NCBI RefSeq assembly: GCF_900095305.1
Contig: NZ_FMDO01000014.1
Coordinates: 62,001 to 126,000, forward strand
Reading direction: 5' to 3'
Origin: Proteiniborus sp. DW1
Lineage (GTDB): Bacteria; Bacillota; Clostridia; Tissierellales; Proteiniboraceae
DNA length: 64,000 nucleotides
Positions 13,676 through 14,239 of the stretch are shown one piece after another (position 1 is the first letter of the stretch; each line of letters begins with the position of its first letter). The position numbers were made by a program, and so were the translations under genes. The notes under the pieces were generated by a model. The model was not told where the DNA came from. It was given only the letters and a program-made list of their open reading frames with translations, and did no database searches.

Positions 13676-13939
13676 ATGATTTTATATGCTGCCATATTAA
13701 AAACCATAGATCCTAAAAAGGATGCTGAAATACTAGATGTACATAAGGCTTATCTACAAAAATACATAGATGAAGGTAAAATATTTGCGAAGGGGCCATT
13801 TACAGACCACAGTGGTGGATTAGTGATCTACAAGGTTGACAGCTACGAAGAAGCTAAAAAACTAGCAGAAAATGACCCAGCAGTACTAGAGAAGTCTAGA
13901 ACTCTTACATTGAAAGAGTGGAGAAGTAATATAGAATAA
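13676..13939 (+). CDS. YciI family protein
   Basis: An 87-residue protein with the YCII-related (dimeric ferredoxin-like) fold. It shows LDVHKAYLQKYIDEGKIFAKG, where the His is the conserved position of the family, then GPFTDHSGGLVIYKVDSYEE and a C-terminal NDPAVLEK. Its small size and DPAV/GPF pattern fit YciI proteins, some of which act on chlorinated or glutathione-like compounds; this one is unassigned. I use ATG 13676 with AAGGAGA at 13661-13667, rather than the open frame that reaches 19 codons upstream. It ends 14 bases before the next promoter region. Confidence 0.8.
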   Translation: MILYAAILKTIDPKKDAEILDVHKAYLQKYIDEGKIFAKGPFTDHSGGLVIYKVDSYEEAKKLAENDPAVLEKSRTLTLKEWRSNIE

Positions 13940-13952
13940 ATTTTTTTCCTTC

Positions 13953-13982
13953 TTGATTAAATATACCCCTATGGGGTATAAT
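13953..13982 (+). promoter_or_regulatory. promoter with embedded CsoR/CstR-type operator
   Basis: The -35 TTGATT (13953-13958) and -10 TATAAT (13977-13982) are separated by 18 bases. Between and overlapping them lies a perfect inverted repeat, TATACCCC TAT GGGGTATA (13962-13980), eight-base arms with a three-base spacer. Operators of the form ATACCC(C)...(G)GGGTAT are known for the CsoR/CstR family of copper and persulfide sensors. Binding here would block RNA polymerase. The regulator is not in this window. Which ligand (copper or persulfide) applies is inference; the glutaredoxin downstream favours thiol or persulfide stress. Confidence 0.8.
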
Positions 13983-14014
13983 AATAATACAATGAAATCA
14001 AGGAGGAGTTTTTT

Positions 14015-14239
14015 ATGTCAAATGTAATTATTTATTCAAGTAATTCATGTGGATACTGTGTATTAGCAAAGGAATATCTACAAGAAAAAGGTGTGAACTA
14101 CGAAGAAAAAAATATCAGTACTGACCCATCAGCTAGGAAAGAATTGATGCAAAAAGGATATATGGGAGTACCAGTAATCATTGTTAATGGAGAAGAAATA
14201 GTAGGCTTTGATAAAGCAAGATTAGAAGAACTTTTATAA
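14015..14239 (+). CDS. glutaredoxin-like (NrdH/thioredoxin fold) protein
   Basis: A 74-residue single-domain redox protein. The active site is CGYC at residues 12-15 in the context NSCGYCVLAKEYL, followed by a cis-Pro segment MGVPVIIVNGEEIVGFD near residue 52. The size suits NrdH-like or 'glutaredoxin-like' electrothiol carriers in anaerobes, which exchange dithiols with thioredoxin reductase or ribonucleotide reductase. The site AAGGAGGAG precedes ATG 14015. Transcription appears controlled by the CsoR/CstR-type operator at 13962-13980, and a terminator at 14288 makes the gene monocistronic. Confidence 0.88.
   Translation: MSNVIIYSSNSCGYCVLAKEYLQEKGVNYEEKNISTDPSARKELMQKGYMGVPVIIVNGEEIVGFDKARLEELL

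Follow-up and report, generated by a model that had tools for sequence, protein, structure and literature searches.

A CsoR-type operator overlaps the promoter of a glutaredoxin gene

The window, that is, the whole stretch of 64,000 nucleotides from Proteiniborus sp. DW1 that was analyzed, carries on its forward strand a gene for a glutaredoxin-like protein of 74 amino acids with a CGYC active site (positions 14015–14239, with the ATG at 14015 and the stop codon ending at 14239), preceded on the same strand by the ribosome-binding site AGGAGG (14001–14006). The protein matches PF00462 with 68.1 bits against a cut-off of 22.9, CGYC being its CxxC motif, and scores 83.2 bits with the YruB-family model TIGR02196, under the curated cut-off of 88.55; it fits the thiol carrier that the first-pass annotation had named as the operator target. 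The promoter, recognized by direct reading of the sequence, consists of the −35 hexamer TTGATT (13953–13958, +) and the −10 hexamer TATAAT (13977–13982, +) with a spacer of 18 nucleotides, and a promoter scan of the window, in which this pair is listed, returned 2 promoter-like matches, not above the shuffle mean of 3.2. The next same-strand open reading frame of at least 40 amino acids begins 255 nucleotides beyond the glutaredoxin gene.

Embedded in this promoter is the operator TATACCCC-TAT-GGGGTATA (13962–13980, +), composed of a left arm (13962–13969), a central TAT (13970–13972), and a right arm (13973–13980). It has the features that define the type 2 dyad of the CsoR family, namely two short G/C tracts with 2 to 4 bases between them, flanking AT-rich repeats, and the pattern TAC-X9-GTA, and it is the sole match in the window at up to 3 mismatches (shuffle mean 0.20). 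The dyad had been placed exactly between the two hexamers, which holds on the left, where 3 nucleotides (AAA) separate it from TTGATT, but not on the right, where its final TATA supplies the first four bases of the −10 hexamer. The CsoR-family reading of the site agrees with its match to the published operator of S. lividans CsoR, a regulator that binds the 21-nucleotide consensus ATATACCCCTNAGGGGTATAT, likewise a type 2 site with TAC-X9-GTA (PMC3902906). We regard the operator as real and its assignment to the CsoR family as firm. Taken alone, its sequence would specify the regulator family and not the signal, because S. lividans CsoR and the sulfane-sulfur sensor ScCsoR both bind related sites.

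Upstream of the promoter, a gene for a YciI-like protein (13676–13939, +; PF03795, 41.8 bits) ends 13 nucleotides ahead of the glutaredoxin −35 hexamer; the dyad was considered as a terminator for this gene and dismissed, as the scan found no terminator. The operon at the left edge of the window encodes a 642-amino-acid fusion (75–2003, +) of an AsrA/HydB-like Fe-S part with an AsrB/HydG/cytochrome-c3-hydrogenase-gamma-like FAD part, which is AsrA/AsrB- or sulfhydrogenase-like with its best family scores under the cut-offs. No evidence emerged for the suggested connection between this operon and the glutaredoxin gene.

The genome encodes two CsoR-family regulators and further operator copies

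A CsoR-family regulator, on whose existence the first-pass annotation had staked its proposal, is present twice: a PF02583 profile search of the genome yielded two genes over the cut-off, with 102.1 and 88.9 bits. CsoR-1 is an orphan, encoded on a different contig from the glutaredoxin gene (C38:54333-54566) behind genes that, from reading of their translations, we call ThiF/TcdA-like and RseC/MucC-like, and CsoR-2 (C3:121614) follows copA and copZ in a copper operon. CsoR-1 shares the sequence RLRRIEGQ with S. lividans CsoR (4adz), whereas CsoR-2 has LLKTSRGQ. CsoR-1 of this genome retains Cys-His-Cys and, judged by these residues, could bind Cu(I). Its sequence as a whole is nearer to the copper sensor GtCsoR (4m1p, 73.6 bits) than to 7mq1 (45 bits), which we take to be a pneumococcal CstR. 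Upstream of csoR-1 itself there is no clear operator, the best site having 4 mismatches.

The operator recurs in the genome, as had been anticipated, before genes for a NapH/Fer4_5-type membrane Fe-S protein (C17:73485, 1 mismatch), for CcdA followed by a TlpA/ResA-like protein (C3:113856, 2 mismatches), and for a HesB-like selenoprotein with an in-frame TGA (C3:115347, 2 mismatches), so that the glutaredoxin gene, initially held to be the only gene served, is one of several. The HesB-like protein scored 66.9 and 64.2 bits with TIGR01911 in two scans (cut-off 66.35) and 75 bits with NF038090 (cut-off 85). On C3, the ccdA-tlpA and hesB cluster lies approximately 3–5 kb from copA-copZ-csoR-2. 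A second glutaredoxin gene (CPHC, C3:112604) is without the operator (best site 6 mismatches); it follows a gene for an ArsR/SmtB-family regulator (NF033788, 100.8 bits; locus L015, 4121–4829).

At up to 3 mismatches, the whole-genome scan returned 12 places and the reversed control also 12, that is, no excess, and the shorter core ATACCC-N5-GGGTAT with at most 1 mismatch gave 9 places versus 7 in the control. Loose matches (up to 3 mismatches) were not counted as evidence by themselves; the exact copy, the close promoter copies, and conservation were. Two sites were taken as chance, one because it falls inside an open reading frame (C36, 95023, read as RNase HII) and the other (C57:31000) because its downstream gene is not clear, and the operator-site loci on C6, C7, C11, C13, and C29 were left out of the analysis.

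The operator tracks CsoR-1 among relatives

The comparison covered 100 genomes, our own and 99 of its genus or order (Tissierellales-like). With at most 1 mismatch, the operator occurs at 57 sites in 39 of the 100 genomes, our own included, against a total of 7 in the reversed-control column. CsoR-1 orthologues, recognized as a clear upper score group of at least 87.8 bits (the next best score is 60.8), are present in 63 genomes, 38 of which have an operator at this stringency, versus 1 of the 37 genomes lacking CsoR-1; in that single genome (G031), the site lies beside a different CsoR. Counted by genus, the operator was found in 25 of 36 genera with CsoR-1 versus 1 of 19 without it. The Fisher values for this association ignore phylogeny and are a guide only.

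Glutaredoxin genes were scored by their best site within 250 nucleotides upstream (120 genes, 95 genomes; not included were G010, G086, and G089, with no glutaredoxin match, G030, with a weak match, and G052, with the gene at a contig end). An operator with at most 3 mismatches precedes the gene in 53 of the 60 genomes with CsoR-1 versus 1 of the 35 without (G049), and the reversed control never fell under 4 mismatches. Another CsoR-family gene is present in 26 of these 35 genomes, 1 of which has the site; in 5 further genomes, CsoR-1 is the sole detected CsoR-family gene, and 4 of these (G004, G007, G039, and G088, not G073) have the operator at the glutaredoxin gene. The distribution within families is consistent: in f19, only G090 has CsoR-1 and only G090 has the site, and in f5, the only genome without CsoR-1 (G072) is without the site at its glutaredoxin gene. 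Seven genomes with CsoR-1 have no scored glutaredoxin site (G034, G038, G045, G061, G065, G073, and G076), six once G038 is set aside, which carries the operator at its other glutaredoxin gene (L048). G049 has the operator at both its glutaredoxin and hesB genes with CsoR-1 not detected; G009 and G025, which have the same genus number, possess CsoR-1, and either a loss of the gene or an assembly gap is possible in G049. Among 40 loci of named genomes, 8 have a site with at most 2 mismatches, for instance, in Anaeromonas gelatinilytica, [Clostridium] ultunense, and Caloranaerobacter azorensis, and the remaining 32, including every locus named Peptoniphilus, have at least 5 mismatches.

The HesB-like genes, matched in 85 genomes and scored in 45 of the 47 selected from these (G053 and G038 had no scorable match), gave a similar picture, with a site within 200 nucleotides in 29 of 32 genomes with CsoR-1 versus 1 of 13 without. 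However, 11 of the 13 proteins from genomes lacking CsoR-1 are non-Sec forms with 29%–39% identity to the query and may not be orthologues; of the two Sec forms in this group, that of G018 is without the site and that of G049 has it. The co-occurrence depends partly on phylogeny and was tested with the CsoR family as the partner; judged from it, CsoR-1 very probably reads the operator in this Tissierellales-like order.

Promoter layout and operator-linked genes are conserved

The 53 distinct operator-bearing glutaredoxin promoters yield the consensus nATACCCnnnnRGGGTATA. A TTG-hexamer ends 2–4 nucleotides upstream of the operator in 51 of them, and the −10 hexamer on the right operator arm reads TATAAT in 38, a layout of which repression by occlusion would be the natural reading.

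First genes behind the operator were read at 31 and then 30 loci of relatives, with proteins that were not scanned named from their translations. Glutaredoxin is the first gene at 13 of the 31 loci of the first set; others encode NapH-like Fe-S proteins, small ferredoxins, HesB selenoproteins, CcdA, thioredoxin-like and thioredoxin-reductase-like proteins, OsmC, CoA-disulfide reductase, an ArsP-like permease, a ferritin-like protein, a CoA-binding protein, and a small Cys-rich protein, and some sites, such as those of L196 and L199, are without a clear gene. In one genome only (G032; L187, 3062–5554), the operator is followed by a cstA/cstB-like operon of TusA-rhodanese, DsrE, rhodanese-MBL, and TusA genes, with no CsoR-family gene found within 6 kb around it; cst-type sulfur genes were not seen at the operator sites read in our own genome. 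The recurrence of the operator before thiol-repair, iron-sulfur, and sulfur-handling genes, tracking CsoR-1, appears to be pointing to a shared stress circuit. Several loci (L157, L158, L164, L167, L153, L221, and L271) contain, beside the operator-driven Cys glutaredoxin, a paralogue whose first active-site position is encoded by an in-frame TGA (UPHC).

Copper promoters use a different site and the copper ligand of CsoR-1 drifts

Around genes of the CsoR-2 type or related ones, 22 loci were examined; copA is present at 17, and none of these 17 copA promoters has an operator match better than 5 mismatches. A C-tract/G-tract dyad within 3 mismatches of TACCCC-N2-6-GGGGTA, often ACACCCC...GGGGTGGGG, is present in 15 of the 17 and appears only at 4 mismatches in the other two (L284 and L202); the copA promoter of our own genome carries CCTACCCCATATGGGGTGGGGG. 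As the motifs of the copA and thiol-gene promoters differ, copper operon and thiol genes within the same genomes use different sites. With copA also absent from the operator-linked genes listed for the relatives' loci, copper efflux is found as a CsoR-1 target neither at the sites read in our genome nor at those loci of its relatives.

Copper-sensing CsoR proteins have conserved Cys-His-Cys ligands with a second shell of Tyr and Glu, and the persulfide sensor CstR is without the metal-ligand His. In 44 distinct CsoR-1 proteins, both Cys are invariant, and the copper-site column holds His in 23, Tyr in 19, and Gln in 2; the second-shell Tyr and Glu are not conserved, with the Tyr35 equivalent in 19 of 44. 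As a control, other CsoR-family proteins were taken from 20 loci of relatives, and 20 of 20 have the His. The CstR-type absence of His thus applies to 21 of the 44 orthologues but not to CsoR-1 of our genome. On the CsoR-1 tree, the state of this position changes approximately 10 times (bootstrap range 9–11), at least 4 of the changes being forced by well-supported branches; on a short tree, CsoR-1 versus the other family members forms an imperfect clade, with 2 changes. Among genomes with a scored glutaredoxin gene (the His state was typed in 43 of the 63 genomes with CsoR-1), the operator is retained in 20 of 21 with the His type, 16 of 19 with the Tyr type, and the 1 with the Gln type. A copper sensor should not tolerate drift of the His with its operator kept, whereas a dithiol sensor would; the Cys-His-Cys of CsoR-1 in our own genome speaks against this argument.

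The same operator precedes copper genes elsewhere in the class

In 148 class-level genomes, the operator was found in 35. At 29 loci, with genes called from their translations, csoR or copA comes next in 13, a glutaredoxin, thioredoxin, NapH-like, or CoA-disulfide-reductase gene in 9, and no clear gene in 7. In G143, of another family, csoR, the operator, and grx follow directly on one another along a single strand. The His is kept in 15 of the 15 CsoR sequences listed for copper-target genomes and missing in 3 of 13 from thiol-target genomes of other families, a count that leaves aside L395 and L403. Since csoR/copA and thiol genes both follow the operator, the same DNA word serves copper genes in certain clades and genes of thiol-redox function elsewhere, and any inference of the signal from the operator sequence alone is weakened, because the identical operator precedes csoR/copA elsewhere in Clostridia.

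A candidate dithiol repressor with a thiol-redox regulon

Building on what can be read from the genomes, that is, the operator, the genes behind it, its conservation, and its co-occurrence with CsoR-1 over other CsoR-family genes, we infer how binding and repression, the signal, and what the targets do biochemically may fit together. CsoR-1 is probably a dithiol repressor of the persulfide or reactive-sulfur type whose thiol-redox regulon includes the glutaredoxin gene. Reduced CsoR-1 would bind the dyad, cover the −10 hexamer and spacer, and block RNA polymerase; modification of its two cysteines would release it, the likeliest agents being persulfides, polysulfides, or some related thiol oxidant. 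Release would allow expression of glutaredoxin, CcdA with the TlpA/ResA-like thioredoxin, the HesB-like selenoprotein, and the NapH-like Fe-S protein, products that would reduce persulfides and disulfides and support Fe-S proteins. Reactive sulfur is likewise the probable signal and is the better half of the copper-or-reactive-sulfur alternative posed in the first-pass annotation. Copper is disfavored because all 17 copA promoters are at least 5 mismatches from the site, because only 1 of the 26 genomes with another CsoR-family gene but no CsoR-1 has the glutaredoxin site, and because the His that would be the copper ligand varies among CsoR-1 proteins.

In anaerobes, copper is highly damaging to Fe-S clusters and thiols, and CsoR-1 might instead be a second copper sensor, released by copper to let its regulon mend copper damage while CsoR-2 runs efflux. 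We consider this unlikely. The Cys-His-Cys set of our CsoR-1, GtCsoR as its closest solved relative, an operator that is that of the copper-responsive S. lividans CsoR and stands before csoR/copA in 13 of 29 class-level loci, and the position of the ccdA-tlpA and hesB cluster near copA-copZ-csoR-2 all speak for it; yet 21 of 44 CsoR-1 proteins lack the His with operator and target retained, copA is missing from the listed operator-linked genes and its promoters are without the site, and the targets in G032 are sulfur specific. The same vicinity of the C3 cluster could suggest that CsoR-2 rather than CsoR-1 reads the operator, a very improbable reading that we rejected, as it is largely refuted by the co-occurrence: the glutaredoxin site is nearly absent where other family members occur without CsoR-1, is present in 4 of 5 genomes where CsoR-1 is the sole detected member, and is not shared by copA promoters.

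The same dithiol mechanism would also serve for another thiol-reactive signal, such as an electrophile, HNO, disulfide stress, or reactive selenium. The Sec-containing HesB among the targets and the Sec glutaredoxin beside the operator-driven one in several genomes would suit such a signal, and S. aureus CstR responds to HNO as well (PMC5480029); sulfane sulfur is favored instead by CoA-disulfide reductase and by the cstA/cstB-like operon of a single genome, and we judge these other signals quite improbable. A MerR-type activator, suggested by a dyad lying between −35 and −10, is scarcely credible and was also rejected: MerR promoters have a spacer of 19–20 bp, whereas here it is 18 bp, the dyad overlaps the −10 hexamer, and its sequence matches CsoR operators. 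We give roughly even chances to an evolutionary scenario in which, in this order of anaerobes, a paralogue took over a copper-CsoR operator, its copper ligand drifting and its cysteines staying fixed, came to sense reactive sulfur (or selenium), and gathered a dispersed regulon of selenoproteins, glutaredoxins, CcdA-TlpA, and Fe-S electron carriers, with copper control moving to another CsoR and a new operator.

Relation to known systems

The proposed circuit would be of a known kind, with a regulon make-up that is apparently new; a search of open-licence papers found no description of such a regulon in Tissierellales. S. lividans CsoR shares with our system the TAC-X9-GTA site, with the same TA and C/G tracts, and the RLRRIEGQ stretch; however, it controls copZA operons and itself, whereas the operator targets here are thiol-redox and Fe-S genes (PMC3902906). 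S. aureus CstR, which controls cstA, cstB, and sqr (PMC5480029), and B. licheniformis YrkD (PMC9918477) resemble the putative CsoR-1 system in being CsoR-family dithiol repressors with two conserved cysteines and sulfur-handling targets, and the operator-linked operon of G032 is of the kind controlled by CstR (PMC5480029). They control a sulfide/sulfane-sulfur oxidation operon, whereas CsoR-1 is unlinked to its targets in our genome, is closer to CsoR in sequence, and often, also in our genome, has the His.

S. coelicolor ScCsoR binds ATACCn6GGTAT and is released upon persulfidation of Cys37 (PMC7533328); it provides a precedent for a CsoR-type protein that senses sulfane sulfur, needs both Cys, and binds a similar site, with a spacer one nucleotide shorter and with persulfide dioxygenase, rhodanese, and a sulfite transporter as targets (PMC7533328). 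E. coli OxyR responds to sulfane sulfur (PMC6831875). CsoR-1 would have a glutaredoxin target in common with OxyR. OxyR is of the LysR type, unrelated to CsoR, and its glutaredoxin target is induced to remove sulfane sulfur.

If correct, our reading would define for these anaerobes a regulon against reactive-sulfur/thiol stress and would name a regulator and a trigger for the HesB-like selenoprotein and the NapH-like Fe-S protein. It would also supply a natural set of sensors that carry His, Tyr, or Gln and share a conserved operator, in which a transition from copper to persulfide sensing becomes testable.

A CsoR motif in Clostridiales is also part of the CsoR meta-regulon of gut Firmicutes, Table 1 of which contains csoR, copA, HMA, and membrane proteins and no glutaredoxin, HesB, or ferredoxin (PMC4938975). 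In some Clostridia (L358, L360, L359, and G182:C36), the operator is paired, its two copies 28 or 36 bases apart and, in L358 and L360, followed by csoR; the arrangement resembles the dual sites described in PMC4938975.
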